A DNA stretch of 64,000 nt. It comes from Mycolicibacterium alvei. Its GTDB lineage: Bacteria > Actinomycetota > Actinomycetes > Mycobacteriales > Mycobacteriaceae. The translations under genes were made by a program, and so were the position numbers. Location: assembly GCF_010727325.1 (NCBI RefSeq), contig NZ_AP022565.1, positions 2,542,001 to 2,606,000 of the forward strand, in the 5' to 3' direction. Under the pieces are notes generated by a model. The model was not told the origin of the DNA. It searched no databases and saw only the letters and a list, made by a program, of their open reading frames with translations. Below are positions 28,052-54,830 of the stretch, piece after piece (position 1 is the stretch's first letter; each line of letters begins with the position of its first letter).

Positions 28052-28074
28052 ATTTAACTACCCGAGGCCGACAA
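28052..28074 (-). promoter_or_regulatory. PafBC-type promoter of the RloC-like operon
   Basis: Reverse strand TTGTCGGCC, 8 bases, TTAAAT. It fits the mycobacterial RecA-independent damage promoter (TTGTCRGTG-N8-TANNNT) except for the two bases before the spacer and the second base of the -10. Six bases then separate the -10 from the ATG, so the transcript would be leaderless. Confidence 0.6.
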
Positions 28075-28103
28075 ATTCGCCGGGACCGTCAGTTGGGCTG
28101 ATC

Positions 28104-28490
28104 TCACGTGCTGGCGACGCTGAAACTCAACAGTGCAGCGACGATCTCACCCAGCTCACCATCCTGGGTCGCCACCTCGTTCATCAGAATCTCGGCCCTA
28201 TCGATGTCGAAATCGGGTGCGAGTTCAATCCCGTTGATGTGCAAGAACGTCCACGCCGATGCCCAGGCGGTCCGCTTGTTTCCGTCGATCAGGGCGTGAT
28301 TACGGGCAAGCGATTGCAGAAGTGCCGCGGCCTTCTCCCAAACTTGGGGGTAGGCGTCCACCCCGAAGACCGTCGCCTGAGGTCGGGCGACAGCCGCGTC
28401 GAGCAGGCCATAGTCACGCACCTGCAGTTCACCGCCGAACGCGATTGACCCCGCGGTCAGTACGTCATCGCGGTCGAGATACTCGATCAC
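28104..28490 (-). CDS. doc: Doc-type (Fic fold) toxin
   Basis: A 128-aa Fic-fold protein with the Doc signature [15 protein letters not shown] at about residues 64-78 (HxxxDGNKR). Doc toxins phosphorylate EF-Tu and stop translation, unlike AMP-transferring Fic proteins. Its ATG overlaps the antitoxin stop by 4 bases, the usual arrangement. Length equals the family's 120-130 aa, and all key residues (His, Asp, Asn, Lys, Arg) are present, so it should be active. Confidence 0.88.
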
Positions 28491-28684
28491 GCCAAACGTC
28501 GGTTGAGTTCGGCCGAACGCTGGGCCACGACCCGCGCCGCCTCGGCCACCCTGCGCTTGTGCATGCTGGCGCGCTCAATGACGGCCGCGTGCGCGAACTT
28601 CTTCAACGACAGGTCGTCGGCTCGGGCCGCGGCCCGAATCTGCTCCATTTCGGCGTCGTCGAAGTCCAGGTTCAATGAAGGCAT
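28487..28684 (-). CDS. Antitoxin of the Doc system (ribbon-helix-helix-like)
   Basis: A 65-aa protein starting [20 protein letters not shown]. The beta-strand-then-helices pattern ([37 protein letters not shown]) suits a ribbon-helix-helix DNA-binding antitoxin, not the classic Phd fold. The start is ATG 28684; an upstream ATG would run back through the operator. Just upstream lies a perfect 12-base inverted repeat, consistent with self-repression. It should neutralise the neighbouring Doc toxin. Confidence 0.8.
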
Positions 28685-28698
28685 GAGATGAGAGTACT

Positions 28699-28728
28699 CC
28701 TGTTGGTACCAAATCAGGTACCAACAGG
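28699..28728. promoter_or_regulatory. Perfect inverted-repeat operator of the Doc toxin-antitoxin pair
   Basis: CCTGTTGGTACC (28699-28710) and GGTACCAACAGG (28717-28728) are exact inverse complements across 6 bases. Each arm also contains GGTACC, itself a palindrome, giving two stacked sites as ribbon-helix-helix dimers prefer. It ends 15 bases upstream of the antitoxin ATG. Confidence 0.8.
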
Positions 28729-28766
28729 GCGAAACCCTCACCCAACAGCGAGGATGCAGTAAATCC

Positions 28767-29363
28767 TTACTCCGGCGGCGGCGGATAGCGGCCGTGCACT
28801 CCGCGCGGGTCGCCCTCCTGGTACAGCTTGTCCTCGTAGTCGGCGCGGTCGGCTAGCACGTCGCGGCGAAACTGCTCGGCGCGCTGCTGTTCCTCGCGCT
28901 GCTGCGCCGACTTGAACATCCAGACGCCGAACCCGGCCGCCACGCCGACCACCGCCAAAACCCCGATCAGCCAAGGGTGTTCAGCGACGACGCCCAGCGT
29001 GAACAGCCCGCCCAGCACGGCTGCCACCACCAGCGCGGGCCGGCGGTGGGAGGTCTGAACGACGGCACCAGGGCCGGATACGGCCACCGAGGACGACGAA
29101 CCTCCGCTGAACAAGGCAACGAGGATCCAGATCGGCAACCACGCCCCGCAGGTCAGCAGGGTCAGCACAAGGTGCAATCCGTGGTTGGCTCCGCCGCCGG
29201 TGGCGACGGCCACCGCAACGGCCGGCGCGACCGGTACCGGCGGGACCGGCGGGGTGGGGACGAAGTGCTGCGTCCAGCGGCGGCCGTCGTGGTAGCGCCG
29301 GCCGGGTTGACCCTCGGGGTCCGGATGCCAACCGGGCGCCGGCGCTGGGTACTGGTTTGTCAT
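28767..29363 (-). CDS. DUF2510 membrane protein
   Basis: A 198-aa protein opening with a DUF2510 motif ([18 protein letters not shown] then RRWTQHF), followed by a proline-rich linker and three or four hydrophobic segments, then a charged C-terminal tail ([15 protein letters not shown]). DUF2510 is a short tryptophan-rich module of actinobacterial membrane proteins with no settled function. I start at ATG 29363 because AGAGGAA lies at proper distance. A PafBC-type promoter sits 48 bases upstream, so it is likely damage-induced. Confidence 0.75.
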
Positions 29364-29410: not shown

Positions 29411-29433
29411 AGACTGACACGTGCCACCGACAA
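29411..29433 (-). promoter_or_regulatory. PafBC-type promoter of the DUF2510 gene
   Basis: Reverse strand TTGTCGGTG, 8 bases, CAGTCT. The -35-like nonamer is a full match to the RecA-independent damage-promoter consensus; the -10 keeps A2 and T6. Predicted transcript start is about 40 bases before the ATG of the DUF2510 gene. Confidence 0.7.
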
Positions 29434-31129: not shown

Positions 31130-31789
31130 TCACGTCGACGGAGTGCGCCGGAACAGCTCGGCGGGCCGGCCGCGGCCGCCGGCGGTGAAGTCGCCGGTCG
31201 CTTCGAGTTGATCGGCCATCGCGCGCCGGAAGTTGTCGCGCTGCAGCGCATGTCCCGCGACCGCTTCGTGGATCAGACGCAGGTCACGCAGGCTGAACGT
31301 CTCCCCCAGCAGGCGGTCGGGGTCCGGAGACTTTTCGTAGCGGGCACGCACGTCGGCGACGGCCAACTCGATGATGTCGTCGTGGTCGAAGGCCAACCCA
31401 CCGCGGACGTCGGTCGACACCAGGCGGGTCGTCTCGACCGACCGCGTCGCCAGGCGTTCCGCTGGGACGACGGCGAGGTGCGCGACGGACAACACCCGGC
31501 CCCGGTCGTCGCGTTTCAGCGCGTCGAACACGTGCAGTTGCCGTGGGTCCAGACCGTGGATATCGGCCTTGTCCGCCAGCGACCGCCGGACCGCGTCGGC
31601 GAGGAGCTCCCCCTCGTGCAGGAATGTGCCCGGCAAAGCCCAGCCACGCCCACGCGTGCGACTGACCTGCAGCACCACTAGACCGGCATCCGGGTCGACG
31701 GTCAGGACTGCGGTGTCGACCGCGACCGAGGGCCGCGGGTAGTCCTCCAACCCCTTGCCGCTGGTGTCCCGATACGGATGCTTGTCCAT
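31130..31789 (-). CDS. Nudix-domain regulator (NrtR-like)
   Basis: A 219-aa protein with an N-terminal Nudix fold and a C-terminal winged-helix (FSLRDLRLIHEAVAGHALQR, then DNFRRAMADQLEATGD). The Nudix box region GTFLHEGELLADAVRRSLAD lacks the catalytic REUxEE residues (RR, DK instead), as in NrtR regulators, which sense ADP-ribose rather than cleave it. It is divergent from an ADP-ribosylglycohydrolase gene, so ADP-ribose sensing is a fitting guess. NrtR identity is inferred from architecture and neighbour. Confidence 0.7.
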   Translation of the reverse strand: MDKHPYRDTSGKGLEDYPRPSVAVDTAVLTVDPDAGLVVLQVSRTRGRGWALPGTFLHEGELLADAVRRSLADKADIHGLDPRQLHVFDALKRDDRGRVLSVAHLAVVPAERLATRSVETTRLVSTDVRGGLAFDHDDIIELAVADVRARYEKSPDPDRLLGETFSLRDLRLIHEAVAGHALQRDNFRRAMADQLEATGDFTAGGRGRPAELFRRTPST

Positions 31790-31810
31790 GTCAGTGCCCC
31801 AGCGTACAGT
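31788..31810 (+). promoter_or_regulatory. PafBC-type promoter of the ADP-ribosylglycohydrolase gene
   Basis: ATGTCAGTG, 8 bases, TACAGT: eight of nine consensus bases plus a perfect TANNNT -10. It overlaps the start codon of the divergent Nudix regulator and predicts a 5' leader of about 40 bases. The leader also holds two GCGC blocks (31824-31827 and 31834-31837) in an AT-rich frame, possibly the regulator's operator. Confidence 0.7.
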
Positions 31811-31857: not shown

Positions 31858-33270
31858 ATGACATCACTGAACGACCGCGTTGAGGGCGTACTGCTGGGCA
31901 CGGCAGCAGGCGACGCATTGGGGGCGCCGCATGAGTTCCAGCCGGCGCGCGGACCAGAACTGCCGGTCGAGATGGTCGGCGGCGGCCCCTGGGAGCCCGG
32001 GGAATGGACCGACGACACCTCCATGGCGATCGCGATCGCCGAAGTCGCCGCCACCGGAGCCGATTTGCGGAATCCCGAGGCGCAGGACGCGATCGTGAAA
32101 CGTTGGTACGAATGGTCTTTGGAGGCAAAGGATGTCGGGATTCAAACCCGGGCGGTGCTCAGCGCCGCGGGTCGCGACGGAGCCACTGCCGACGTGGCGC
32201 GTGCCGCGGCCGCCGAGGTCCACGCACGCATAGGTCGCAGCGGCGGCAACGGATCGCTGATGCGGACCGCGCCGGTGGCGATCGCCTACCTCGACGACGA
32301 GGACGCCATGGTCCAGGCCGCCCGCGCGATCAGCGGACTCACCCATTTCGAAGCCGACGCCGCCGATGCCACGGTGTTGTGGTGCAGCGCAATTCGCCAT
32401 GCCGTGCTGACCACCGAGCTCAATGCCCGGATCGGTCTGCACCACCTCGACCCTGACCGTCGCGCCCTGTGGTCGCAGCGACTGGACGAGGCCGAGGCTT
32501 CCCGTCCGGTGGATTTTCCGAGGAACGGGTGGGTGGTCGGGGCGTTGCAGGCGGCGTGGTCGGCGATCGTCACGACCGCCGCCGACGGTCGCGGTCCCGA
32601 GCACCTGCGCCGCGGGATCGATGCGGCCGTGCGCTCCGGGAACGACACCGACACCGTGGCCGCGATTGCCGGCGGGCTACTCGGCGCCGCATATGGTGCG
32701 TCCGCGGTTCCGTTGCAGTGGCGCTACCTGCTGCATGGTTGGCCCGGGATGCGGTCGCGTGGGCTGGTGGGGTTGGCAACGGCGATCGAACGGAAGAAGC
32801 CGAGCGCCGATCCCGACTACTCCTGGTCGGGGGCCGACATCCTGATTGCTCATCCCCATGACCCGGGGGTTCTGCTGGGCAGTGTCGGCGCGCTGCGGAA
32901 ACTGCCGGAAGAGGTGAGTGCAGTGGTGTCGCTGTGCCGTATCCCGGAAAGCGATGTGCCCGAAGGTATGCCGCATGTCGAGGTGCGACTGATCGACAAG
33001 ACCGATTTCGACGAGAATCCCCATCTGGATTTCGTACTGCTCGACACGGTGAGGGCTATTGAAGCGCTTCGCGCGCAGGGCCACACGGTGCTGGTGCACT
33101 GCGTCGAGTCCTACAGTCGCACACCCACGGTGGCGGCGCTCTACGGTGCGCAGTCCTGCGGCGTCGAGGCCAAGCGGGCGTTGGCCGATGTGCTCGCGGT
33201 ACTGCCCGGTGCCAATCCGAACCCGGTGTTTCGGGAGGCGTTGCGGCGGTTGGGTAATCGGCGAATGTGA
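31858..33270 (+). CDS. ADP-ribosylglycohydrolase fused to a dual-specificity phosphatase-like domain
   Basis: A 470-aa two-domain protein. Residues 1 to about 300 match the DraG/ARH fold: GVLLGTAAGDALGAPHEF, WTDDTSMA (metal-binding Asp-Asp), GGNGSLMRTAP, and NDTDTVAAIAGGLLGA. Residues about 320-470 match a dual-specificity phosphatase: HTVLVHCVESYSRTPTVAA contains the CX5R loop with cysteine and arginine intact. It should remove ADP-ribose from proteins or DNA and perhaps dephosphorylate a related product. A strong AGGAGGGG precedes ATG 31858. It is likely damage-induced and regulated by the adjacent Nudix protein. Confidence 0.85.
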   Translation: MTSLNDRVEGVLLGTAAGDALGAPHEFQPARGPELPVEMVGGGPWEPGEWTDDTSMAIAIAEVAATGADLRNPEAQDAIVKRWYEWSLEAKDVGIQTRAVLSAAGRDGATADVARAAAAEVHARIGRSGGNGSLMRTAPVAIAYLDDEDAMVQAARAISGLTHFEADAADATVLWCSAIRHAVLTTELNARIGLHHLDPDRRALWSQRLDEAEASRPVDFPRNGWVVGALQAAWSAIVTTAADGRGPEHLRRGIDAAVRSGNDTDTVAAIAGGLLGAAYGASAVPLQWRYLLHGWPGMRSRGLVGLATAIERKKPSADPDYSWSGADILIAHPHDPGVLLGSVGALRKLPEEVSAVVSLCRIPESDVPEGMPHVEVRLIDKTDFDENPHLDFVLLDTVRAIEALRAQGHTVLVHCVESYSRTPTVAALYGAQSCGVEAKRALADVLAVLPGANPNPVFREALRRLGNRRM

Positions 33271-33278: not shown

Positions 33279-34133
33279 TCACCACCACGCGTGGTCACAC
33301 ACCGTGCACCACCACTTCTCATCACTAGGACAGCAGCCGCCGATATGCAGCCACGGTCCCCACGACTCGGGATCAGCCGGCATGCCGTACTGGATCGTCT
33401 GGGTCCGTTGCCCTCCGCACTGCGGACAATCGGGATTCTGGGCGTATTTGAAGTCGATGAACGACCGGAAGTTTCCGTCGCGCATGCGGTCGCGACAGCG
33501 TCGACAGATGACGGCCGGCCAGTCCTTGGCAGCGCTCCGTACCGCCGCACGGAACGGCCCCCGCACACGTGGACTGTCCGGAGTTCGGATCGGTGGGTCC
33601 GGGTGCCAACGCGGCAGCGGGTCGACGGTATGAATGTGCACCAGGTCGCGGGCGTCGGCTTCACTCAGGTCGATCGGCGCGCCACAGCCGTGGCAGTCCC
33701 CGTCGAAGTTGAGCAGGTTGCGTGCGGCCGCCACCGAGGAATGCCCCCAGCGGTTCTCCGGTCCCCCGTATACCGGGCTCTCGTGGATGGCCAGGATGAC
33801 CCGCTCGGCGTCGTCATCATCGAGGCGCCAGCTGACGAACGCATCGCTGAGGTCGAGCACCATCGCCAGGGTCGCCAGGTCCACCAGATCAGCGCCGTGC
33901 AGACCCAGCACCGCACCGCCGAGACCGCCCTCGTGGTCGATGCGGGCCAGCCGCGTCACCACCGAGACCGGATCGGTGCCCAATACGACGATCGCGTAGT
34001 CGCCGGGGCGCGATTCCCCGAACGCGTACCGCCACGGCTGGTACGGCGAGCGCGGCTCCAGCAGGGTGATGATGCCGTCCTTCCAATCTGCGGCTTCGAG
34101 GATGTGCAGGCGGTGGTGGATCGTTTGCGACAT
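33279..34133 (-). CDS. Uncharacterised zinc-binding protein, possibly HNH-like
   Basis: A 284-aa protein with a folded N-terminal domain of about 145 residues and a cysteine-rich C-terminal half. CHGCG then VHIHTVDPLPRW then ICRRCRDRM resembles the CxxC-H-CxxC skeleton of HNH nucleases, but the usual DHI catalytic motif is altered. Further pairs (DCPQCGG, GGCC, WWCTVC) suggest an extra zinc ribbon at the end. A PafBC-type leaderless promoter lies directly upstream. No specific function recognised; HNH descent is a guess. Confidence 0.6.
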   Translation of the reverse strand: MSQTIHHRLHILEAADWKDGIITLLEPRSPYQPWRYAFGESRPGDYAIVVLGTDPVSVVTRLARIDHEGGLGGAVLGLHGADLVDLATLAMVLDLSDAFVSWRLDDDDAERVILAIHESPVYGGPENRWGHSSVAAARNLLNFDGDCHGCGAPIDLSEADARDLVHIHTVDPLPRWHPDPPIRTPDSPRVRGPFRAAVRSAAKDWPAVICRRCRDRMRDGNFRSFIDFKYAQNPDCPQCGGQRTQTIQYGMPADPESWGPWLHIGGCCPSDEKWWCTVCDHAWW

Positions 34134-34139: not shown

Positions 34140-34162
34140 ATTATCCCATCGGGGTATGACAA
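34140..34162 (-). promoter_or_regulatory. PafBC-type leaderless promoter of the 284-aa zinc protein
   Basis: Reverse strand TTGTCATAC, 8 bases, GATAAT, then 6 bases to the ATG. The TTGTCA core, spacing and -10 T6 fit the damage-promoter pattern, and the distance to ATG predicts a leaderless mRNA. Confidence 0.55.
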
Positions 34163-37361: not shown

Positions 37362-38507
37362 TCAGCCTGCATCGTCGAGGCTCCAGTAGTTCTCCGCTTG
37401 TCTCAGGATGTCTTTCTTGTAACGCGACCTCAGCTGGTCGATCACCGCGATCGTGTGCGCCGTCAGCTCCTCGCGAATCCCGCTCTGCGCGTGGGCGAAT
37501 GGGATGAAGGCACGCAGCAGATCAGGCGCGTCCAACACGACCTCCAACGGAGTGTAGGAGTCGTCGTAGTACGGGCTGCCGATCGCCCGTTCCACGCGGA
37601 CCTCACTCCACCGCAGCGGATCACCACAACCAGTCTCGATCAGCTCGAGCAGCAGATCCCGGTGGCCGCGGTCGGCAAAGGGCGCTGCTGAGTCCGTGGC
37701 GAAGAACCGGTCGCACAGCTGCCCGGCCGCCACCCAGTCCGTGGACGGCCGCTGTGCACCACCTTCGGGCAGCTGCCGTACCAACCACTGAATCAGGGCT
37801 CGGCACTGCGGCCAGGTATCGGTCGCACGCGTCAAGGTCGGCTCCGAGAGCGCATCCTCGATCCACGCCCTGGCATCGGCCAGGGTCATCTCGACGACAT
37901 AGGTATCACTGCTGGAGGCGACCGCCCGCGCAAGACACTGGTCAATCGGATCCCACACGACGATGGCATCGACGACGCCGGACAGTCCGTTGTGGTCGAT
38001 CAAAACGGACGCGGTCACCTCGTGTTTGCCGTCGAATCGCGCGCCGATCACAAGTTCGTCGGCGTCGCCGAGCACATCAGCGAGGCGCACCGCGCGGTAC
38101 ATCTCGACGTGCGACAGACCGGTGATCCATTGCGGCAGAGGATCGTTGCGCTCAGCGACAGCTTCTCTGCATCGCAGCTGGAGCTCTGGATCATCGACGA
38201 GAAGTTCAGCGAGCACGGCCAGCAGCGCCCTCGTCTCCCGATTACGCTCACCGATCATGCCGTCGACAAACCGATCCAGGAAGCCGGCGTCGTACTCCGA
38301 CTTTGGCCAGTCCAACGGATCGGGCCTGCCCTTCTGGATCACGTAGCTGGCCGTGCCAAGCAGACTGTGGGGGTGTCTGCCCGAAACGGTCATACGTATC
38401 GCGTCCCTGAAGGTTGTGTCGGGACGAGATTCCCGGTCGCGTTTCCTGGCCCGCCGCACATCACGACGAGCCTCTTTGGCCTTGCGTTCACGTCGTTTGT
38501 CTCCCAT
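37362..38507 (-). CDS. Uncharacterised 381-aa protein
   Basis: A hydrophilic protein with a very basic N-terminus (MGDKRRERKAKEARRDVRRA) and an alpha-helix-rich body. The N-terminal half holds HPHSLLGTASYVIQKGRPDP and the middle a beta region (FDGKHEVTASVLIDHNGLSG) ending in a proline-flanked helical tail. The start is at ATG 38507, and a stem-loop fills the space where a ribosome-binding site is expected. Uncharacterised proteins of this type, with a lysine/arginine leader, occur in actinobacteria. No catalytic motif recognised. Confidence 0.65.
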   Translation of the reverse strand: MGDKRRERKAKEARRDVRRARKRDRESRPDTTFRDAIRMTVSGRHPHSLLGTASYVIQKGRPDPLDWPKSEYDAGFLDRFVDGMIGERNRETRALLAVLAELLVDDPELQLRCREAVAERNDPLPQWITGLSHVEMYRAVRLADVLGDADELVIGARFDGKHEVTASVLIDHNGLSGVVDAIVVWDPIDQCLARAVASSSDTYVVEMTLADARAWIEDALSEPTLTRATDTWPQCRALIQWLVRQLPEGGAQRPSTDWVAAGQLCDRFFATDSAAPFADRGHRDLLLELIETGCGDPLRWSEVRVERAIGSPYYDDSYTPLEVVLDAPDLLRAFIPFAHAQSGIREELTAHTIAVIDQLRSRYKKDILRQAENYWSLDDAG

Positions 38508-38508: not shown

Positions 38509-38543
38509 GGCGGAGGCTACTCAGGGGTGCTGACACCTCCGCC
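38509..38543. terminator. Stem-loop between two co-oriented genes
   Basis: GGCGGAGG (38509-38516) and CCTCCGCC (38536-38543) form a perfect 8-base-pair GC stem with a 19-base loop. It starts 2 bases upstream of the 381-aa gene's ATG and lies downstream of the 169-aa gene. It could end the upstream transcript or occlude translation of the downstream gene; there is no U-run. Confidence 0.4.
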
Positions 38544-39119: not shown

Positions 39120-40082
39120 CTACGCCGGCACACTTGCGACCCGACAGAACTCTGCGGCGAACGCCTGCGCGATACCCGCAGCGCGGCGGTGGTACTCGGC
39201 GTCATCGAGGTCGGCGTCGCCGCGTCGGTATCGAGAGCCCAACCGCGCCAACGCGTCCGCTCCCTCGTTCAAAGGGACACCGGAATGCCCGGGCACCCAG
39301 CGTATTTCGATCCGGTCGCGCTCGAGATAGATGCGGCGCCGGGCGGCGTGCAGGCAGTGTTCGCGATCGGGCTCTTCTGCCGGGTAATCCGCGGGCATGG
39401 CCGGCTGGCCACGCTTCCAGCGGTTCACCATGGAGATGGCGTGCTGACTGTCGGACAACACCGTCAAGTGATGGCGGGGCAACGCGGACACCGCGGCGCC
39501 GATCGCCCGCAGCTCGGCGACGAGCACCGGTTCGGTACCGACACGTTTGGACGACGACCGATATCCAGCCAGCCCGTAGTCCCCGGACGAGGTGAGCCAG
39601 CCGAACCCGGCATGCTGTTGACGCACCGAGCCGTCGGTCGCCACGGTCACGGGCCCGCCATCGACCGAGCGTGGCGACGGGAGCGGTACCGGCTGTGCCG
39701 GGCAGGCATTCTGCACGGATGCGACGGCGGCGGCCAGCAATGAGCGATCGGCATGGTCTGGACGCTCGATCCACCAGTCGCCTGCCGCCTCGGAGATCTG
39801 CCCGGCGTAGCGCCACAGCGGGCTTCCGCAAGTCAGGTTCACGACGAACCGCAACCGCTCCAGCCCCTGGCGCCCGGCGCAGACCACGCCGATGGCATCC
39901 AGCACCGCCACCTCGGGATTGGGCGCCGCCACCACTCCTGAGCACGACCAGGACTCCCCGACCGCGGCATACCGGTAACCGAACGCCGTCTCGGCGACCG
40001 CAATCGCGATCGACTCGGCCGGACGCGGGCGCGCAAACACCAGGTCGACGCGCCTGGGGCGGGCCTGAGGTACCTGAACCAT
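39120..40082 (-). CDS. RNase HI with an uncharacterised N-terminal domain
   Basis: A 320-aa protein. Residues about 145-320 form an RNase HI domain with all catalytic residues: ATDGS (Asp150), VAELRA (Glu190), LSDSQ (Asp211) and NEGADALAR (Asp276), plus WVPGHSGVP. The N-terminal 140 residues (start MVQVPQARPRRVDLVFARPR) resemble no domain I know. It should remove RNA from RNA-DNA hybrids, relevant to R-loops after damage. A PafBC-type promoter with a perfect TACTGT -10 is 31 bases upstream, divergent from that of the EEP nuclease gene. Confidence 0.85.
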   Translation of the reverse strand: MVQVPQARPRRVDLVFARPRPAESIAIAVAETAFGYRYAAVGESWSCSGVVAAPNPEVAVLDAIGVVCAGRQGLERLRFVVNLTCGSPLWRYAGQISEAAGDWWIERPDHADRSLLAAAVASVQNACPAQPVPLPSPRSVDGGPVTVATDGSVRQQHAGFGWLTSSGDYGLAGYRSSSKRVGTEPVLVAELRAIGAAVSALPRHHLTVLSDSQHAISMVNRWKRGQPAMPADYPAEEPDREHCLHAARRRIYLERDRIEIRWVPGHSGVPLNEGADALARLGSRYRRGDADLDDAEYHRRAAGIAQAFAAEFCRVASVPA

Positions 40083-40112: not shown

Positions 40113-40135
40113 ACAGTAGGGGTGGCCACCGACAG
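40113..40135 (-). promoter_or_regulatory. PafBC-type promoter of the RNase HI gene
   Basis: Reverse strand CTGTCGGTG, 8 bases, TACTGT: eight of nine -35 bases and a perfect TANNNT. The leader would be about 24 bases. It is back-to-back with the promoter at 40167-40189. Confidence 0.72.
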
Positions 40136-40166: not shown

Positions 40167-40189
40167 TTGTCGGTGCCCCTCTTCATACT
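40167..40189 (+). promoter_or_regulatory. PafBC-type promoter of the EEP nuclease gene
   Basis: TTGTCGGTG, 8 bases, CATACT. The -35 nonamer is a full consensus match; -10 has A2 and T6. Predicted start about 38 bases before the ATG at 40234. Confidence 0.72.
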
Positions 40190-43359: not shown

Positions 43360-43382
43360 AGTATCACACCGACCACCGACAA
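43360..43382 (-). promoter_or_regulatory. PafBC-type promoter of the coiled-coil membrane gene
   Basis: Reverse strand TTGTCGGTG, 8 bases, GATACT: full -35 match, -10 with A2 and T6. The predicted leader is about 100 bases, longer than at other sites in the window. Confidence 0.7.
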
Positions 43383-43396: not shown

Positions 43397-43954
43397 CTAC
43401 AGCCCTGCTGCAGTGGCTCCATAGGCGGCCTGGGCCGAGGTGAACCCGGCGTATTCGAGTTGGCCGATGAGGCCGCCACGGGAGAACGCCGAATAGTCCA
43501 GGTAGTCCTTCGCAGCTTTTGCGGCTTGCTCGTTCCAGTCGACGGTGATGCTGTCGACGGCGAAAGTCGCGTCTGCGGTGGAGAACTCGCTGTACTCCAG
43601 TTGCTCGATGAGGCCCTGCCGGGAGAAGGCGGTGTCGTCGAGGTAGTCCTTGGCGGCGCGCACCGCGTTGCGCTGACTCACCGTCGAGACGGGTTCCAAC
43701 GGGACCATGGGTCCGGAGAGAGCTCGAACATGGGGCTCGTCGTGCTGTTCGATGCTGGTGACGGCGCCGGCCAACTGCACTGACGGTGCGGCGACGTCGA
43801 ATCCCTCAGTGGTGGCATTGACGGACCACAAGGCAGCGCCACCGAATGACAACAGCATGCCCACGGCGAAGGCGCCGAGAAGGTTCTTTCTCGTCATCGT
43901 GCGGCTCGCCTCGCCATGCAGGGTCGCGGCCGTCTTGACCAAGTAGGTAGTCAT
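43397..43954 (-). CDS. Ltp-repeat membrane protein (superinfection-exclusion family)
   Basis: A 185-aa protein with a membrane anchor (GAFAVGMLLSFGGAALWSVN) and two C-terminal repeats: RAAKDYLDDTAFSRQGLIEQ with following LEYSEFS, and KAAKDYLDYSAFSRGGLIGQ with LEYAGFT. This is the host-cell-surface-exposed lipoprotein (Ltp, PF07553) repeat, which in phage TP-J34 Ltp blocks DNA injection by other phages. Here a transmembrane anchor replaces the lipobox. I keep ATG 43954 (GGAG upstream); ATG 43897 is possible. A PafBC-type promoter lies 51 bases upstream. Confidence 0.75.
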   Translation of the reverse strand: MTTYLVKTAATLHGEASRTMTRKNLLGAFAVGMLLSFGGAALWSVNATTEGFDVAAPSVQLAGAVTSIEQHDEPHVRALSGPMVPLEPVSTVSQRNAVRAAKDYLDDTAFSRQGLIEQLEYSEFSTADATFAVDSITVDWNEQAAKAAKDYLDYSAFSRGGLIGQLEYAGFTSAQAAYGATAAGL

Positions 43955-44004
43955 CGTATGTGCTCCATCCGTTGTTCATGGTTGCTCGCACACGCGAGCC
44001 GCAC

Positions 44005-44027
44005 AGAATGACAGAGCCCACCGACAA
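44005..44027 (-). promoter_or_regulatory. PafBC-type promoter of the Ltp gene
   Basis: Reverse strand TTGTCGGTG, 8 bases, CATTCT: full -35 match. It sits at the left end of a duplicated block, and the copy at 47671-47693 is its duplicate. Confidence 0.72.
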
Positions 44028-44198
44028 CCTTGCGAATCTGCGACGCGGGGGTGCGGTTGGCGCGGCCAGCGTGCTGCTGGACTACAAGCCACTTCTGCCA
44101 CATTCGCACCAGATCCGGAGTGCCACAAGAGTTCGACGATGCCTAGACACGGCGCGCACAACGCGCTGAGCGGGCGTGCGCGTGCGGCCGCGCAGACG

Positions 44199-44585
44199 CT
44201 ATCCGGCAGGGTTCGAGCGAAAACCGTCCAGACCACACCAGTCCGCACGATTGAAATCAGACGGATGCTCAGCGACGTGACAAACGCGCCGACCCCACGT
44301 TGCGATCCACGTATCCGGCGCTGTCCGCGCCGTCTCGGCAGCTGTCAACAGGCGTGTGTCCGTGCGCTCCGAATGGCCGAATATGCAATACAAGCTGTCA
44401 AGAAGGTACTTCCGGGACGGGCACGATTGATCGCCGATCAGCTCCAGGAGCAGTTCCAGGTTCTCCACGTCCGCGATGATGAGATCCCAGTCCTGCATCG
44501 GCTCAAAAGCTCCGCTGTATGCCCAGGAGCGGATCTCGTCCGGTGTCGGGTTGACCACATCGACAAAGCGCGGTTCGTCGGGCAT
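44199..44585 (-). CDS. Uncharacterised 128-aa protein, intact duplicate
   Basis: A 128-aa protein starting MPDEPRFVDVVNPTPDEIRS. It has an acidic N-terminal half (QDWDLIIADVENLELLLELI) and a basic end (TWIATWGRRVCHVAEHPSDF). A frameshifted relative lies at 47860-48244. I start at ATG 44585, because the paralogue shares homology from this codon and both have AGGGCG just before it; GAGAAT six bases upstream could be a leaderless -10. Widespread uncharacterised actinobacterial type; could be an immunity-like or regulatory protein. Confidence 0.6.
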   Translation of the reverse strand: MPDEPRFVDVVNPTPDEIRSWAYSGAFEPMQDWDLIIADVENLELLLELIGDQSCPSRKYLLDSLYCIFGHSERTDTRLLTAAETARTAPDTWIATWGRRVCHVAEHPSDFNRADWCGLDGFRSNPAG

Positions 44586-44684
44586 CGCCCTATTCTCGCA
44601 GGTGAACCGCACTGGTGGAGAATATGATTGGGCCAGGAGGACGTGGTTGTAGCTGCAAGTCCTAGACCTTCAGCTACCTAGGCA

Positions 44685-47210: not shown

Positions 47211-47603
47211 CTACGAGTTGGTGATCCTTTCCAGGACGGCCGGGCGGTCTTGCACGACCACCACATCAGGGAATTGCGCGAGCAACGCGCAGACGAACGC
47301 CGATCGCATGACTTTCAGGTCGTTCAGAAGCTCGATGTGGCTGAGAGTTCCGTTCTTACGCAACTGTTCCCAGGCCACGACGACCATCCATGCCGGCACC
47401 AGCTGAGGCCCGGAGGCGCGCGCCCTGGATCGCTCCGTTTCCACCCACACGCCCGTGCGGTCGAACGACGTCACCCAGTTGGTGCGCTTGTTGCTCAACG
47501 TCTGGATGACATCGCTAGCGGCGACCACCTCCCCGATGCGGTCCAACAGGTCGTCGTCGAGTTCGACCGCCTTCGTGCGGCGGCCTCCGCTGTCACGAGT
47601 CAT
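47211..47603 (-). CDS. Uncharacterised 130-aa damage-promoter gene
   Basis: A 130-aa protein beginning MTRDSGGRRTKAVELDDDLL. The C-terminal half (AWMVVVAWEQLRKNGTLSHI, then LNDLKVMRSAFVCALLAQFP) is helical and ends in VVVVQDRPAVLERITNS. ATG 47603 has GGGAGG upstream. The reading frame stays open far upstream into the pseudogene at 47860, but that is chance or a relic. The PafBC-type promoter at 47671-47693 lies 68 bases upstream. No family recognised. Confidence 0.6.
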   Translation of the reverse strand: MTRDSGGRRTKAVELDDDLLDRIGEVVAASDVIQTLSNKRTNWVTSFDRTGVWVETERSRARASGPQLVPAWMVVVAWEQLRKNGTLSHIELLNDLKVMRSAFVCALLAQFPDVVVVQDRPAVLERITNS

Positions 47604-47670
47604 TTCTCTTGCCTCCCGTCGTTCAATCTGCTTGCGCTGAGTCGCGCTGGTTGCGTTCAAGCAGCCGGAC

Positions 47671-47693
47671 AGAATGACAGACACCTCCGACAA
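47671..47693 (-). promoter_or_regulatory. PafBC-type promoter of the 130-aa gene
   Basis: Reverse strand TTGTCGGAG, 8 bases, CATTCT: eight of nine -35 bases. It is the duplicate of the Ltp promoter and now drives a different gene. Confidence 0.68.
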
Positions 47694-47859
47694 GCCGGCG
47701 AATCCGCGACGCATGAGGCAGTTGGTGTGGCCACCCGCCGCTGGATCAAGAGCCATTTCGGTCGCATCCGAGCAGATTGGAAGTGCCAGAGGAGTTCGAC
47801 AATGCCTAGGCACGTCGCGCACAGGGCGCTGATTGGTATGCGTGCAGCTGCTTAGACGC

Positions 47860-48244
47860 GATCCGTCGGGGTTCGCGCGAAAACCGTGCCGGCCACACCA
47901 GTCCGCCCGATTGAAATCGGACGGATGCTCAGGGACCAGACAAACGCGCCGACCCCACGTCGCGATCCACGCATCCGTGGCTTTCCGCGCCGTCTCGGCG
48001 GCTCTCAACGGCCGCGGGTCGGTGTGGTCCGAATGGCGACCAGGCAATACAAACTGTCAAGAAGGTATTTGCGAGCACGGCACGCTTGATCGCCGACGAG
48101 CTCCAGGAGCAATTCCAAGTTGTCCGCGTCAGCGACGATGAGGTCCCAGTCCTGCATCTGCTCGCACGCTCCGCTGTATGCCCAGGCGCGGATCTCCCCC
48201 GGCTTCGGGTTGACCACATCGACAAAGCTCGGCTCCCCGGACAC
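47860..48244 (-). pseudogene. Frameshifted duplicate of the 128-aa gene
   Basis: Homologous to 44199-44585. The N-terminal part (GTG 48244, MSGEPSFVDVVNPKPGEIRA to SLYCLV) is in one frame and the C-terminal part (AAETARKATDAWIATWGRRV onward) in another. Near 48030 this copy has 8 bases where copy 1 has 9, which accounts for the shift, and the original stop codon is lost. Whether a truncated product is made is unknown. Confidence 0.75.
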
Positions 48245-48347
48245 CGCCCTGTCTTTGCAGGAGTGCTCCGGCGTCTGCCCGATCGAGCCGGCGGGATCGG
48301 TTACTGTGATATCCGTCGATGTAGCAAACCGGTAGGAGCTCAACGAC

Positions 48348-48762: not shown

Positions 48763-49365
48763 CTACGTGCGCACAGCAGGACCGGCTAGCGCCGCAATCT
48801 GCTCGACGGTGTACCTGAGCTCCTCCACCAGCCAACTGTCGGTCCGCTGCTCGAACACCTCCAGCAGGCTGCGGTAGTACCACAGATGCTGTTGCGGATC
48901 CTTGACGTTGAAGCGCTGCCAGAGGTGGTCACCGTGCAACCGCAGGTCGCGCAGAATCGCCCGGGCATTGTCAACCTTGTCGGCCAGCGAGACCAGGACG
49001 GCATCATCGGAGGCGCCCCGCAAATGCGCGATATAGCGTTCCTTGCGATCTCGCCACGGCGGTTTGGGTACCTCGTCCGTATCGCTGCACTCGGACACGA
49101 TCTTGGCCACGGCCGAACCGAACCGGGATTCGATCGCGTCCAAAGTCGGCTTTCCGCCCTGGTCTTCGACGGCGTCGTGGAGAAGACCCGCGATCGCCTG
49201 CGTCTGGCTGCCACCGGCTTCGATCACCAGTGCCGACACCGACATCAGATGTCCGAAGTACGGGATGTCCCCGCCTTTCCGAGTCTGTGTCGCATGTAGT
49301 TTTGCCGCGTAACACATGGCCTCTGCGAACTCGTCGCCAAGCTTCGGTGTGGTTGTCGACTCCAT
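48763..49365 (-). CDS. HD-domain hydrolase of the SpoT/MESH1 type
   Basis: A 200-aa protein with the HD metal ligands in order: H39 (FGHLM), H63-D64 followed by ED (LLHDAVED), and D129 (LADKVDN). The layout matches the hydrolase domain of RelA/SpoT and stand-alone MESH1-like ppGpp or NADPH hydrolases; no synthetase domain is present. It may trim alarmones or related nucleotides. A PafBC-type promoter sits 28 bases upstream, with GGGAAAGAG as ribosome site, so it is likely induced by damage. Confidence 0.8.
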   Translation of the reverse strand: MESTTTPKLGDEFAEAMCYAAKLHATQTRKGGDIPYFGHLMSVSALVIEAGGSQTQAIAGLLHDAVEDQGGKPTLDAIESRFGSAVAKIVSECSDTDEVPKPPWRDRKERYIAHLRGASDDAVLVSLADKVDNARAILRDLRLHGDHLWQRFNVKDPQQHLWYYRSLLEVFEQRTDSWLVEELRYTVEQIAALAGPAVRT

Positions 49366-49392: not shown

Positions 49393-49415
49393 AGTGTCCC
49401 AGACCGGTATGACAT
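49393..49415 (-). promoter_or_regulatory. PafBC-type promoter of the HD hydrolase gene
   Basis: Reverse strand ATGTCATAC, 8 bases, GACACT. Weaker -35 (six of nine) but exact spacing and the A2/T6 -10. The leader would be about 21 bases, with a ribosome-binding site inside. Confidence 0.5.
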
Positions 49416-51638: not shown

Positions 51639-52600
51639 GCCGACGGATCATCACGACCGAACAGAACGACAGAGGCCACCGACAACCTTCCGATTCCGCC
51701 GACGTTCTCGACCCGGGCCTGCCGCCAGAAGAGCTACACGCGCCAGACTCCCCCGACGACTATGCTGCGGTGAGTTTCTGCACACGCCTGGAGGGCGACG
51801 AACTCGGTGTGCGATGCCGAATCGAAACATGCAATGCCTATGGGCATTTCGTGGTCGATGGTGAGGCCATCTTCTTTCTGCCGGCACCGGTTTCGCGCGA
51901 TAAACCGGAGATCGTCCACGAATTCACCGAGCAAGTCGGTGGGCTGGTCGTGTTTCCCTACGTCAGATCCGCGGTAGCGTCGCTCGCGCCCAGATGTCGG
52001 TACCGGCCTCGCCGCTGCCGTTGCTTCACGCCGGCGACGTGGCGCTCACACAGGACGATGAACTCGTCACCGAGCAGGAACGTCCCGAGCTCTTCATGCA
52101 CGGCACCGTGACGAGGACCACCGCCGAGGGACAGGAGGAGCTCGCCGAGTTCTTCGTCGCCAGCGAAACGGGAACGGTCACGCCATTCGGCGCGGAGGGG
52201 CAAACGCCCGACCTTGATGAATTTCTCAACGCCATTGCCGAGCTTCCGCCGCCCGAGGAAATCACAGCGGCATGGATGGTACGCCCGCACGGAGAGGCGG
52301 CGGTCCGCCAATCCCATAGAGGCCTTGCGGTCAGCGGACAGGGACACCGCCACCGACGCCGCCCTGACCGAAATCGACGAAGCAGTAGCACATATCGCGG
52401 CGGAAGATGCCTTCACGGCGCTGAACGAGGCGGTCGACATTCTCAGTGTTTCGATCGAAACGTCACGAAAGACGGTCGACGACACTGATGACACCGGGCG
52501 CGACGGCAGCGAGGCTCCGATAACACTGCTGGAGGCCGCCGAATACGTACGCGACAGCTGGGAGCCCGTGCGGGTCGCAACAACGTCTGTGGAGAACTAG
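51635..52600 (+). pseudogene. Frameshifted gene, possibly SecB-like
   Basis: Three consecutive frames read as one protein. Frame 1 (from GTG 51770 or ATG 51635) gives LEGDELGVRCRIETCNAYGH to FPYVRSAVASLA; a missing base near 51990 shifts to MSVPASPLPLLHAGDVALTQ; a second shift near 52300 moves to EALRSADRDTATDAALTEID and the end. The FPYVRSAVASLA-to-SVPASPLPLL stretch resembles the VRxxxxxLxxxxGxPPLxLPPx pattern of SecB-like toxin-antitoxin chaperones. No intact product is expected; a sequencing error is possible. Confidence 0.6.
51663..51685 (-). promoter_or_regulatory. Orphan PafBC-type promoter pointing into a sense gene
   Basis: Reverse strand TTGTCGGTG, 8 bases, CGTTCT. The flank beyond the -35 (ACCTT then CGATTC and CGACG) resembles the flanks of the sites at 44005 and 47671, so it may be another copy of that promoter module. 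It would transcribe antisense to the 189-aa gene; no reverse-strand gene starts nearby. Confidence 0.5.
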
Positions 52601-52607: not shown

Positions 52608-53027
52608 ATGAACACATCAGATCAGTCGTCAGCCTCTCTCATCGCGGCATTGTCGGAGGCACGGATACCGGCAGAGAATCACGCGTTCATCCGCGCGACC
52701 ACCACTGCCGCCCGGATCACCGGGTACCGCGTCGTTCACCACGTTGGCAAGTCGTATGTCGTGGCCACAAGATGCGACGGCGGTCGCGATCTACACATCG
52801 AGTACGGGGCTACGAACGGATTCAGCTCCGAAGAGGAGACCATGCGACTCGCGCCCGATGCGGTGGGCCGAGGAGCCAGTTCGAGGAAGGGAACGTGGTA
52901 CGTCTTGCACCCGGTCAATCAGGCTCGTGTAGGCGGTGAGCGTTCCCGGGATGTCCGACGTAAGGCAACATTGTGCGACTGCGGTATGGAGCTATCGCTG
53001 ACAGGAATATGTGGCAGTTGCGATTAG
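52608..53027 (+). CDS. Uncharacterised zinc-ribbon protein, paralogue 1
   Basis: A 139-aa protein. A folded N-terminal part (IPAENHAFIRATTTAARITG, then KSYVVATRCDGGRDLHIEYG) ends in a short zinc ribbon, CDCG then TGICGSCD. A paralogue at 54900-55331 has the same plan, and the two flank the 445-aa gene. A GGGAACCC-type ribosome site precedes the ATG. DNA or protein binding by the ribbon is plausible; no function recognised. Confidence 0.6.
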   Translation: MNTSDQSSASLIAALSEARIPAENHAFIRATTTAARITGYRVVHHVGKSYVVATRCDGGRDLHIEYGATNGFSSEEETMRLAPDAVGRGASSRKGTWYVLHPVNQARVGGERSRDVRRKATLCDCGMELSLTGICGSCD

Positions 53028-53168
53028 CGGCCGCGTGAACAAATCGTCGCATGCTCCGGTCGCGGGCAGCACGCTTGGGTGAACAGGGCAGAGCTTCGGC
53101 CCCCGCACTGGCAATTCGAACGATTGCGGCCGCCAGTTGCGCGAGTGCTGCGCCCACAGCATTGACAT
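52992..53168 (-). pseudogene. Decayed zinc-ribbon microprotein paralogue
   Basis: The reverse strand reads MSMLWAQHSRNWRPQSFELP, then CPVHPSVLPATGACDD, aligning with the 43-aa gene at 50868-50999. The last zinc ligands (CDEC) are lost, and the end runs into the 3' end of the zinc-ribbon paralogue. It lies 2 bases downstream of the short reverse frame at 53171, suggesting a former two-gene unit. Confidence 0.5.
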
Positions 53169-53170
53169 CC

Positions 53171-53416
53171 CTACAGACCCAGCTGCGCATCGGCGTCAAC
53201 GAGCGCTTCAATGTCGCCGAAATAAAGCCCGCCTTCCGGCAGCACCAAGGATGGGGCAGCGCCGACGACGTTGCGCACGACCACCCAGCGTCCACCCCCG
53301 GACGCCTGCAGCGAGCCGCCGTCGGCGTCAGTGAAACGGTTAGCGAATGCGCCAGACGGATACCGATCCGCGGCCCGCGAAAACGTGAACTCACCTAGAA
53401 TCCCGAGCGCGAGCAA
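53171..53416 (-). pseudogene. Short reverse-strand frame of protein-like composition
   Basis: An 81-codon frame from TTG 53416 reads MLALGILGEFTFSRAADRYP onward to EALVDADAQLGL. The composition is protein-like, and no ordinary start with a ribosome site exists, so it may be the end of a gene lost when the 445-aa gene arrived. Low confidence. Besides this and the decayed microprotein, 53028-53428 contains nothing else I can name. Confidence 0.3.
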
Positions 53417-53428
53417 AAGGGGACGCAG

Positions 53429-54766
53429 ATGCCGAACGAGCTTGATCCGACAACACCGGTACCTGTGGACAGCGTGCCTGACGAACTCCCCGCGGTGATT
53501 CCGCACGACGGCGAGGTTGCCGTTTCCGTACAGCCCGAGGGACTTTTGGTCGCGGGTGATCCATCGGAGATCGAAGCCTACGTCGACCGCATTCGGGGTG
53601 CCGCGGGCAACGTGGTCGGGGTCATGGGGGTGGACAAGACAGCACTCGGCAACGTGGCCGGCCTCGCGGCTGGAACGGCGTCGTTCCTGGGGCAGTCGGC
53701 AAAGTTCGTTCAGCTGCACCCCGAGAGCCTCAAGGCGATTCAGAAGGGCCGGCTGATCCCAGGAACAGACGGCTTCTACCGGATGATGACGCGCGGTGCG
53801 GACAAGAAATTTGTCAGCCAGCTGCAGTGGAAGCACGCCAACCTCACCCCGGCGCGCATGATGTCGCTGCAGATGGTCGCGGTGCAACTGGCGCTCAAGT
53901 CAGCGATTGCTGAAGTCGAAGAATCCGTCAAGCGAGTCGAGGGCAAGGTCGAGGAAGTGCTGCGCCTCGCCCACGCCAATCGGTCCGGCGACGTCTTGGG
54001 TGATCGCGTCACCATCGATCGGATGACCGCGTATCTGGACCGACACGGATCGTTCTCCCATGCCGACTGGGATTCGATTGCCGGGATCGGGCCGGCACTC
54101 AATCGCACCGTGGAGCAGCTCCGTCATCACGCCGATCGGACGTTGAAGAGCTTCGACGCAACGAAGCCGATCCAGGAGCGCGCCGATTTCATCGTCAAAG
54201 CGGTCGACAGCAACCAGCTCGGCGAGACACTGAGTCTGTTGGTGGTGGCCCAGGAGTCGTTGTTCAAGTGGCAGCGGCTACGGCTGGCTCGCGTTGAGGC
54301 TACTCAACCTGAGCACGTGCAGCAGGTTCTCGATGACGCGCGCGATCTGCTGGCCCGACAGCTGGTCGAGGACGACGCGTTGTTCCAACGTGCCCGTGAA
54401 ATCCTGGAGGCCGTGGCGAAGACGGAAGCCATCGACGGTTTCCGGTTCTGGTCGGTGCAGGGTCTACAACGCAGCCTGCCGATACTTCGCGCCGACCTCG
54501 ATCGATTCGGCCAGTCGCGACGCGCGCATATGCAGGAGTGGCAGGACTTCAAGGCGCCGACCGCTCGTGACGCCGCCAACGCTGCCGTCGAGCGAGTGAG
54601 CGATACCGCCACGGCAGCACTCGGGGTGGCAAGTGACACAGCAACTTTGGCTCTTGGCGCCGCAAGTGAAGGTATCGACCGGATCGGGGGGCTGCTCGGG
54701 CGGGCACGCGACAAGAGCAAGGTGTGGCGGCGGGAAAACCCGAGCGACACCGAGGATTTGATGTAG
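53429..54766 (+). CDS. Uncharacterised 445-aa protein bracketed by paralogues
   Basis: A 445-aa protein. The N-terminal 130 residues have a glycine-rich segment (DRIRGAAGNVVGVMGVDKTA, then GLAAGTASFLGQSAKF); the middle is helical with coiled-coil character (AIAEVEESVKRVEGKVEEVL); the C-terminus has alanine-rich repeats (VSDTATAALGVASDTATLAL) and a charged tail. AAAAGGGGA precedes the ATG; TAGAAT at 53396-53401 is a good -10. It looks like a membrane- or surface-associated accessory protein. Unknown function. Confidence 0.6.
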   Translation: MPNELDPTTPVPVDSVPDELPAVIPHDGEVAVSVQPEGLLVAGDPSEIEAYVDRIRGAAGNVVGVMGVDKTALGNVAGLAAGTASFLGQSAKFVQLHPESLKAIQKGRLIPGTDGFYRMMTRGADKKFVSQLQWKHANLTPARMMSLQMVAVQLALKSAIAEVEESVKRVEGKVEEVLRLAHANRSGDVLGDRVTIDRMTAYLDRHGSFSHADWDSIAGIGPALNRTVEQLRHHADRTLKSFDATKPIQERADFIVKAVDSNQLGETLSLLVVAQESLFKWQRLRLARVEATQPEHVQQVLDDARDLLARQLVEDDALFQRAREILEAVAKTEAIDGFRFWSVQGLQRSLPILRADLDRFGQSRRAHMQEWQDFKAPTARDAANAAVERVSDTATAALGVASDTATLALGAASEGIDRIGGLLGRARDKSKVWRRENPSDTEDLM

Positions 54767-54807
54767 CTTCCTGCCACTGAGTGCGGCGGCTGGCCATTCA
54801 CCCATCG

Positions 54808-54830
54808 GTGTCAGTGCGCGATGAGACAAT
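54808..54830 (+). promoter_or_regulatory. PafBC-type promoter of zinc-ribbon paralogue 2
   Basis: GTGTCAGTG, 8 bases, GACAAT: eight of nine -35 bases and a -10 with A2 and T6. The leader would be about 63 bases. It shows that this paralogue, at least, is in the damage regulon. Confidence 0.6.

Follow-up and report, generated by a model that had tools for sequence, protein, structure and literature searches.

PafBC is described as controlling most damage-induced mycobacterial genes and as being switched on by single-stranded DNA (ssDNA) (PMC6789036; PMC11804915). The known promoters of this type belong to scattered repair genes. In the chromosome of Mycolicibacterium alvei, in contrast, a stretch of 64,000 nucleotides (here called the window, to which all coordinates refer) holds a row of similar promoter sequences ahead of genes that are accessory and clustered, between positions 28,052 and 54,830. 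The locus raises two questions, i.e., whether these sequences are PafBC-type promoters and whether the genes behind them form one regulon, as a first-pass annotation had proposed. On balance, the island is probably an accessory-gene hotspot of the chromosome, in which many genes have a PafBC-type promoter of their own and would be co-switched by DNA damage.

Architecture and frequency of the sites

Each of the twelve sites listed in the first-pass annotation is found in the sequence, nine on the minus and three on the plus strand, and each is composed of a nonamer, exactly 8 bases and a hexamer with a final T. The −26 box reads TGTC followed by GG or AG in 10/12, the exceptions being 34140 and 49393 (TGTCAT). 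The sites had been described as starting with TTGTC, which holds for eight; the start is ATGTC at 31788 and 49393, CTGTC at 40113 and GTGTC at 54808. The complete TTGTCGGTG is present in five sites, as noted earlier (29411, 40167, 43360, 44005 and 51663). A spacer of 8 bases is also where a hand-weighted score peaks: at a cut-off of at least 15.5 the island yields nine sites at spacer 8, none in the reversed sequence, and 0, 3, 0, 1, 0, 5, 2 and 0 sites at spacers 4, 5, 6, 7, 9, 10, 11 and 12, respectively. These nine are not identical to the twelve: 28052, 34140 and 49393 fall short of the cut-off, and of these 28052 and 49393 do not even reach 14.5. A 13th site, overlooked before, is located at 38514 (−). 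Matches with one mismatch are also seen at 3524, 17653 and 22504, all within long open reading frames, and are probably background.

The assignment to TTGTCRGTG-N8-TANNNT stands for the box, the gap and the final T; the full TANNNT hexamer is found only at 31788 and 40113. The hexamer at 28052 is TTAAAT, and the remaining nine sites lack the T at −12, eight of them having TG at −15/−14, i.e., an extended −10 element. Genome-wide, counted over all 73 one-mismatch rows, TG occurs in 9/29 sites without the −12 T and in 0/15 with it (P 0.014); this association is weak when the island is left out (6/25 vs 0/15, P 0.046). Strict membership in the PafBC promoter class is claimed only for 31788 and 40113; for the other sites the sequence points to a similar way of working.

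The window contains 21 motif matches at up to two mismatches, compared with 2.95 in dinucleotide shuffles. Across the genome, the pattern with at most one mismatch gives 73 matches and the reversed pattern 14. Six of the 73 fall in the island (26.8 kb), where 0.32 are expected at the genome rate (Poisson P 8e-7, for a region chosen after the fact), and the earlier suggestion that the density exceeds the genome average is borne out. Chance clustering of motif-like sequence draws on the 14 reversed matches, which mean that some of the 73 are fortuitous, and on the post hoc choice of the island. Set against the excess over expectation, the spacer peak, the empty reversed control and the conservation described below, it is refuted for the set as a whole, with a residual probability that is negligible; an individual weak site, 54808 for instance, could nevertheless be due to chance. 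Related promoters are found in 12 of 148 genomes of the genus, seven of which have at least two of them inside 30 kb.

The probable regulator

The genome encodes pafB and pafC, and exact motifs are found at recA, uvrA and uvrB. The chromosome has 11 exact copies in total, seven of them ahead of recognisable genes (uvrB, uvrA, recA, two DUF222, DUF2786 and a metallophosphoesterase); because the other four lack a clear downstream gene, an exact motif alone is no proof of a promoter. The island sites share with the RecA-independent PafBC promoters the TGTC[GA]G box, the 8-base gap (10 N after TGTCGG), the hexamer with a final T and the dispensable −35 element. They differ in the frequent replacement of the −12 T by TGn and in two sites that read TGTCATACC. 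Control by LexA (SOS) would have only damage responsiveness in common with these observations; LexA-like boxes with at most two mismatches number 5 in the window vs 3.64 in shuffles, and this explanation is very improbable. The assignment to PafBC-type promoters is upheld by the motif, the spacing, the presence of pafB/pafC, the exact motifs at recA, uvrA and uvrB, and conservation before orthologs. A PafBC regulon is likely here.

Genes downstream of the sites

On the left, a PafBC-like site (28052..28074 (−), TTGTCGGCC-N8-TTAAAT) lies 6 nt ahead of ATG 28045 of an SMC/RecN-like ATPase gene (25640..28045 (−), 801 aa, Pfam SMC_N E 2e-16). This gene is missing at the corresponding place in M. 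peregrinum (loci L012 and L014); a site of the same type precedes SMC-like homologs at L064 and L072, loci retrieved via the neighbouring DUF2510 promoter. That promoter (29411..29433 (−), extended −10 TGT-CAGTCT) precedes the gene of a DUF2510 membrane-type protein (28767..29363 (−), Pfam PF10708, likely start ATG 29363). An ADP-ribosylglycohydrolase (ARH) gene (31858..33270 (+), Pfam PF03747 E 2e-49) follows the site 31788..31810 (+), ATGTCAGTG-N8-TACAGT, for which the fetched loci hold no ortholog for comparison. The additional site (38514..38536 (−), GTGTCAGCA-N8-TAGCCT), which has a counterpart before the ortholog in L014, is located 6 nt ahead of ATG 38507 of a gene (37362..38507 (−), 381 aa) without a match in Pfam or PHROG.

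Two divergent sites follow. The first, 40113..40135 (−), CTGTCGGTG-N8-TACTGT, is kept in L012 and L014 and precedes a gene with a C-terminal RNase H domain (39120..40082 (−), Pfam PF00075 E 1e-13); the second, 40167..40189 (+), TTGTCGGTG-N8-CATACT, is kept in L011, L012, L013 and L014 and precedes an endonuclease/exonuclease/phosphatase-family (EEP) gene (40234..40932 (+), Pfam PF03372, likely start ATG 40234). The site 43360..43382 (−), with extended −10 TGT-GATACT, is kept in L011, L012 and L014 and falls below threshold in L013; its gene (42454..43254 (−), 266 aa) encodes a protein that is coiled-coil-like by eye and has 466 homologs, the named ones among the matches listed being mostly mycobacterial "hypothetical" proteins. 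An Ltp-family lipoprotein gene with two repeats (43397..43954 (−), Pfam PF07553) is preceded by 44005..44027 (−), extended −10 TGT-CATTCT, kept in L011 and L013; relatives in Gordonia phages are annotated as lipoprotein or superinfection exclusion.

The site 47671..47693 (−), TTGTCGGAG with extended −10 TGT-CATTCT, is kept before 5/5 homologs (two in L011, one each in L012, L013 and L014) of a 130-aa gene (47211..47603 (−)) whose family is spread in Mycobacteriaceae (228 homologs) and whose AlphaFold model (pLDDT 90) matches no PDB entry at E ≤ 0.001. In this family the promoter is found at only 7/30 loci, all of them among the eight (counting the locus of the window) that share 70% identity or more, so the link between gene and promoter is lineage-specific. 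The site 51663..51685 (−), TTGTCGGTG with TGT-CGTTCT, points against a plus-strand ORF (51009-51638) and is apparently an orphan with no evident gene ahead. At the right end, 54808..54830 (+), GTGTCAGTG-N8-GACAAT with TGA ahead of the −10, is the weakest case, having no footprint and no ortholog to compare; its gene (54900..55331 (+), 143 aa, no Pfam match) is related to 52608-53027 (67% nucleotide identity over 280 nt).

The idea of a single regulon holds in part. Sites precede the RNase H, EEP, ARH, Ltp, HD_4 (see below), DUF2510 and SMC-like genes and five unknown genes; individual sites are lacking at the HNH (41346-42425), PIN, Fic and 46056 genes, and likewise at the MscS and OPT genes, which lie between site-bearing segments.

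Conservation and apparent spread of the promoters

All sites are located in segments that the M. peregrinum and M. setense relatives either lack or carry in another arrangement. Where orthologs could be compared, the motif is kept more strictly than its surroundings. At independent loci, i.e., omitting DUF2510, SMC, 42454 and any locus retrieved through the promoter of the gene under test, identity to the window is 182/198 in the nonamer, 129/132 in the hexamer, 126/176 in the spacer and 363/660 (55%) in the upstream 30 nt, and six core positions are identical in 132/132 comparisons. The all-pairs footprint, which leaves out 42454, ARH, 51663 and 54808, gives 94.7%, 94.5%, 74.2% and 47.1%, respectively. 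Both footprints are motif-anchored and ungapped, the relatives' sites being the best score in 120 nt.

A segment comprising gene and promoter is duplicated (43997..44602 (−), 81% identical to 47663..48261 (−)). The homology ends 8 nt past the −10, beyond which the downstream genes differ, and 48 nt around 51663 are 85% identical to the 44005 region. Because many sites have TGn and the similarity among several extends past the motif, the promoters look like one cassette that spread to unrelated genes. The same features, i.e., TGn in 8/12 sites, common downstream sequence and duplication of the cassette together with its flank, would fit ordinary, damage-independent extended −10 sigma-A promoters in which the TGTC box was carried along as the cassette spread and contributes little to regulation. 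That explanation is unlikely, as conservation is equally strict in the nonamer and the −10 and not in the flanks, and as the identical box is found at recA, uvrA and uvrB.

A shared 5′ leader hairpin was considered and is at most a weak observation: several leaders start with CGGCTCGC and can fold, with a mean z of only −1.0 for 43 leaders against simple shuffles, a set that includes at least 3524 and 8541 of the window, which are probably not promoters. Rfam gave no match at gathering score within 27-56 kb.

Variant sites at 34140 and 49393

The two TGTCAT sites form a second class, whose pattern has exactly two exact copies in the genome, both in the island. One (34140..34162 (−), TTGTCATACC-N4-TGG-GATAAT) lies 6 nt ahead of ATG 34133 of a gene (33279..34133 (−), 284 aa) whose product has conserved Cys in the alignment and is zinc-ribbon-like by eye; no match was found in Pfam, NCBIfam or PHROG, nor for its AlphaFold model (pLDDT 82) in the PDB at E 0.001 or better. 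The layout is repeated before 4/4 homologs (L067, L069, L073 and L074). The other (49393..49415 (−), ATGTCATACC-N4-TGG-GACACT) precedes an HD_4-family hydrolase gene (48763..49365 (−), Pfam PF13328 E 1e-23) and is kept before 4/4 orthologs (L011-L014); the layout is recognized by eye in three of four more distant homologs (L015, L016 and L017; not L020).

At such variant sites, above all TGTCATACC-N4-TGG, another WYL activator, or PafBC with a further factor, could operate. The departure from TGTCRGTG, the restriction to the island and the conservation before both gene families speak for this possibility, as do two WYL genes beyond pafB/pafC in the genome, one of them PafB-like (C1:2525079), and the description of SiwR as another ssDNA-responsive mycobacterial WYL activator (PMC10693628). 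The class-2 sites have, however, the 8-base geometry of class 1 and reside in the same island, and for PafBC of M. tuberculosis, variants with TGTCAC have been reported (PMC8151990). We regard either option, a separate activator or a further factor, as conceivable but rather doubtful.

Relation to defence islands and plasmid arrays

As in defence islands and integration hotspots, variable genes, including small ones without known function, are found in a fixed neighbourhood, and a PD-T4-6-like kinase and helicase-like genes adjoin on the right (55-64 kb). PADLOC was applied to ten proteins, of which six are encoded within 25.6-49.4 kb. The SMC-like gene matches 41 models of ATPases, with mad3 ranking first at E 3e-22, the HNH gene gives weak matches to PtuB/Cas9 HNH, the kinase 55460, outside the site range, matches PD-T4-6 (E 4e-82), and the ARH, 37362, RNase H and HD_4 proteins have no match. 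Unlike in such islands, no complete known system could be recognised in these ten proteins, and no integrase among the annotated island genes.

The same promoter occurs in arrays on the second contig of the genome (C2) and on 5/5 related mycobacterial plasmids checked; part of this contig is denser than the island (11 one-mismatch sites in 51 kb). The five plasmids, which carry a methyltransferase-helicase gene, are five of the six mycobacterial rows among the 25 records listed out of 1964. The controls (ten mycobacterial, three Nocardia/Rhodococcus) are the analyst's pick of 13 from 80 EccB-matching records with most pathogen plasmids left out, and neither group was selected by promoters. In one control without TrwC (NZ_CP122996.1), three exact sites are packed into 2.7 kb. 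For 40-57 kb, no plasmid relative of high identity was found.

The plasmid arrays, not the island, resemble Frpo leading-region anti-defence islands, as far as PMC11541004 describes them, in repeating one promoter type ahead of numerous small genes, largely on a single strand, together with the methyltransferase-helicase gene. They differ from that description in that the promoters are PafBC-type rather than ssDNA hairpins, and in that nine TrwC-bearing mycobacterial plasmids have no arrays. A role as conjugative leading region or in entry is not supported, given these nine plasmids and a TrwC (PF08751) search without a match in this genome or the five array plasmids.

Proposed function

The arrangement suggests that the island genes are switched on jointly upon DNA damage. 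This induction, its dependence on PafBC and the joint expression are what we infer from the sequence; the damage-triggered defence or repair island suggested in the first-pass annotation is more conjectural. Damage would generate ssDNA, and ssDNA-bound PafBC would allow sigma-A polymerase to use a −26 element (TGTCRGTG) located 8 bases ahead of the −10, such that the scattered island genes would be turned on together with recA, uvrA and uvrB. The single promoter cassette may have reached unrelated genes through duplication and recombination.

More tentatively, and with less confidence than we place in the hotspot itself, mobile and accessory mycobacterial DNA may have taken over PafBC, the ssDNA sensor of the host, as a master switch for its genes, in the hotspot and in one family of large plasmids with arrays. 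Single-stranded DNA, whether it stems from damage, from a phage or from other DNA entering the cell, would then induce a gene set private to this DNA (methyltransferase-helicase, AAA, VWA, nucleases, Ltp). If islands and plasmids carry PafBC promoter arrays of their own, damage would turn on accessory genes as a block. If so, the TGn and TGTCATACC variants would broaden the known promoter code, and a set of uncharacterised genes would become testable as damage-induced.

Promoter architecture and enrichment

PafBC-dependent promoters take the form TTGTCRGTG-N8-TANNNT. All twelve PafBC-type sites placed by the first-pass annotation in an island at 28052..54830 were found as described, i.e., with 8 bases between nonamer and hexamer and T as the last hexamer base; TTGTCGGTG is carried by five of them, as had been counted, and the sites begin with TTGTC in eight cases and with another base followed by TGTC in four. 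A scan of the genome (6.02 Mb in two contigs; the window is C1:2542001-2606000 of the chromosome) gave 73 matches with at most one mismatch, and 14 for the reversed pattern, while up to two mismatches gave 21 matches in the window vs 2.95 in shuffled sequences. The expectation of a density above the genome average was borne out, with six one-mismatch matches in the 26.8 kb island vs 0.32 predicted from the genome rate (Poisson P 8e-7, for an island chosen after the fact). At a hand-weighted score of at least 15.5, below which sites 28052, 34140 and 49393 fall, the 8-base spacer gave nine island sites and none in the reversed sequence; spacers of 4, 5, 6, 7, 9, 10, 11 and 12 gave 0, 3, 0, 1, 0, 5, 2 and 0.

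Of the twelve hexamers, only those at 31788 and 40113 read TANNNT, and T at −12 is absent from nine sites. Eight of these nine (29411, 34140, 43360, 44005, 47671, 49393, 51663 and 54808; not 40167) carry TG at −15/−14, which is an extended −10 element. When the 73 genome sites were restricted to the 44 that have an intact nonamer, A at −11 and T at −7, TG was found in 9/29 without the −12 T vs 0/15 with it (P 0.014), and in 6/25 vs 0/15 when the island was removed (P 0.046). The combination TTGTCGGTG-N5-TGNNANNNT has nine exact copies in the genome, three of them inside the island. A second class, TGTCAYACC-N4-TGG-NANANT, comprises sites 34140 and 49393, which are its two exact genome copies, both in the island; allowing up to two mismatches raises the count to 12, vs 4 for the reversed pattern. 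A thirteenth site, at 38514, had been overlooked. Since sites 28052, 34140 and 38514 end 6 nt ahead of an ATG, their transcripts would be leaderless.

Conservation and regulator

Four loci of relatives (L011−L014) were retrieved through the HD_4 protein, independently of promoters. Sites precede the orthologs of Ltp (2/2), EEP (4/4), RNase H (2/2), HD_4 (4/4) and genes 37362 (1/1), 47211 (5/5) and 42454 (3/4, with none at threshold in L013); for gene 33279 they precede 4/4 homologs, from four loci retrieved through promoters of other genes. In an ungapped, motif-anchored comparison of the window with these sequences, leaving aside 42454, identity was 182/198 in the nonamer, 129/132 in the hexamer, 126/176 in the spacer and 363/660 in the upstream 30 nt, and six core positions were identical in 132/132. 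Sites 31788, 51663 and 54808 have no ortholog for comparison. Among distant HD_4 homologs, NTGTCNNAC-N8-NANNNT was seen by eye in three of four (L015, L016 and L017, 58−75% identity) and not in L020. The 47211 family has the promoter at only 7 of 30 loci (one hit in the reverse-complement control), which speaks against it as a general rule; at 70% identity or more it is present in 7/8, the window's own copy counted. RNase H homologs at 56−58% identity (L057, L061) have no site of their own and lie directly downstream of a site-bearing DUF2510 gene.

Two adjoining WYL genes in the genome match solved chains: the first aligns over 326 residues with a “transcriptional regulator-like protein” and less strongly with PafBC (6sj9), the second across 314 residues with PafC. 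The exact motif has 11 chromosomal copies; seven precede a recognizable gene, i.e., uvrB (7 nt to the start), uvrA, recA, two DUF222, one DUF2786 and one metallophosphoesterase gene, and four precede no clear gene. PMC8151990 gives the M. tuberculosis motif as TGTCGG, TGTCAG or TGTCAC-N10-TA-N3-T, equal in geometry to the island sites, and PMC11804915 describes activation of PafBC by ssDNA and contact of PafB, with sigma-A, to the −26 motif. A third PafB-like WYL gene lies at C1:2525079-2525279, ~17 kb left of the window, and is a candidate regulator of the second-class sites.

Variable segments and a duplicated gene-promoter unit

The HD_4 protein is 93−97% identical to those of Mycolicibacterium setense and M. 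peregrinum, which places the genome beside them. In M. peregrinum (L014) genes 22428, 24850, MscS 30071 and OPT 34280 follow in direct succession, as do the last three in L012; because these flanking genes are contiguous there, the SMC/Fic/DUF2510 and NrtR/ARH/33279 blocks were either inserted here or lost there. In L014, unlike L011, the space between OPT and EEP is occupied by RNase H, 37362 and PIN, and the order of the 41−55 kb genes differs among L011−L014. All 13 sites fall inside segments variable among relatives; MscS and OPT have no site upstream. The GC content is 64−72% at 1−28 kb vs 60−64% at 43−57 kb.

A 606-nt segment occurs twice at 81% identity (43997-44602 and 47663-48261), comprising a gene plus a promoter; homology ends 8 nt beyond the −10 element and the downstream genes differ (Ltp vs 47211), which points to cassette-like shuffling at the promoter. 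Site 51663 has 48 nt in common with the 44005 region and is called an orphan because it is directed against the plus-strand ORF 51009-51638. The strict cassette promoter is found in 12 of 148 genus genomes, our own included (reversed control 0), seven of which hold at least two copies within 30 kb. These promoters precede relatives of DUF2510, Ltp, 42454 and 47211 and, by eye, DUF732-like and LuxR-type HTH-like genes (DUF732 was confirmed behind one related site); at some loci the downstream gene is indistinct.

Several of sites 40167, 43360, 44005, 29411 and related loci have a common downstream sequence starting CGGCTCGC, a leader able to form a 5′ stem-loop; across 43 leaders the mean z was only −1.0. 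The protein at 46056-46700 matches phage family phrog_7371 over nearly its full length (E 1e-63) and by eye resembles a von Willebrand A domain. The segment 55460-63982, immediately to the right of the island, codes for three further proteins: a kinase that closely matches the PD-T4-6 defence models, a helicase of UvrD type and a protein with an MZB domain and weak similarity to DruE.

Promoter arrays on plasmids

Of the 73 genome matches, 15 fall on the second contig, C2 (304 kb, treated as a plasmid), a density of 49 per Mb vs 10 per Mb on C1, and 20 of 22 C2 sites at 40−100 kb (score at least 14.5) lie on one strand. Arrays, mostly on one strand, occur at 46−97 kb of C2 (L004, L005, L006), which encodes a 1566-aa methyltransferase-helicase, and on five mycobacterial plasmids reached through this common gene (L123, L124, L125, L134, L135). 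All five carry 8−15 one-mismatch matches, 4.3−6.4 times the C1 rate (reversed control 0, 2, 0, 0, 0). Around the gene, 33/47 sites lie at most 120 nt upstream of an annotated same-strand start (thresholds 14.5 and 15.5 in two scans, the first without a check of minus-strand starts). On the M. vanbaalenii plasmid (1-178,999 of 183,415 scanned), 10 of 18 sites lie at 0.6−19.2 kb, all on the minus strand. Homologous plasmid regions of two Rhodococcus, one Dietzia, Curtobacterium and Streptomyces have 1, 3, 1, 0 and 2 sites, and two Nocardia and one Rhodococcus plasmid 2, 0 and 2 matches.

Ten other mycobacterial ESX plasmids, 2.67 Mb in total, have 21 matches (~8 per Mb), vs 11 for the reversed pattern, and nine carry a TrwC relaxase, for which C2 and the five array plasmids gave no match; the arrays therefore mark one plasmid family. 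A role of the arrays at conjugative entry is not supported by this distribution, the nine TrwC-bearing plasmids being without arrays. Three exact PafBC-type sites lie on one strand within 2.7 kb (176.5−179.2 kb) of the M. aubagnense plasmid NZ_CP122996.1, where a TrwC search gave no match.

Possible function

Titles and opening lines of abstracts in the open-access literature on PafBC with genomic islands and promoters, on plasmids, conjugation and ssDNA, and on mycobacteriophage describe no PafBC promoter islands or plasmid arrays; subscription papers are mostly outside this coverage, and absence from print is not claimed. Beside the architecture, enrichment, conservation, regulator and canonical targets shown here, the mechanism that we infer is that ssDNA-activated PafBC would switch on the island genes. 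RNase H and EEP suggest work on nucleic acids, and HD_4 and ARH suggest nucleotide or ADP-ribose chemistry; relatives of Ltp in Gordonia phages are annotated as lipoprotein or superinfection exclusion (among 10 of the 126 records). The region is a possible defence island.
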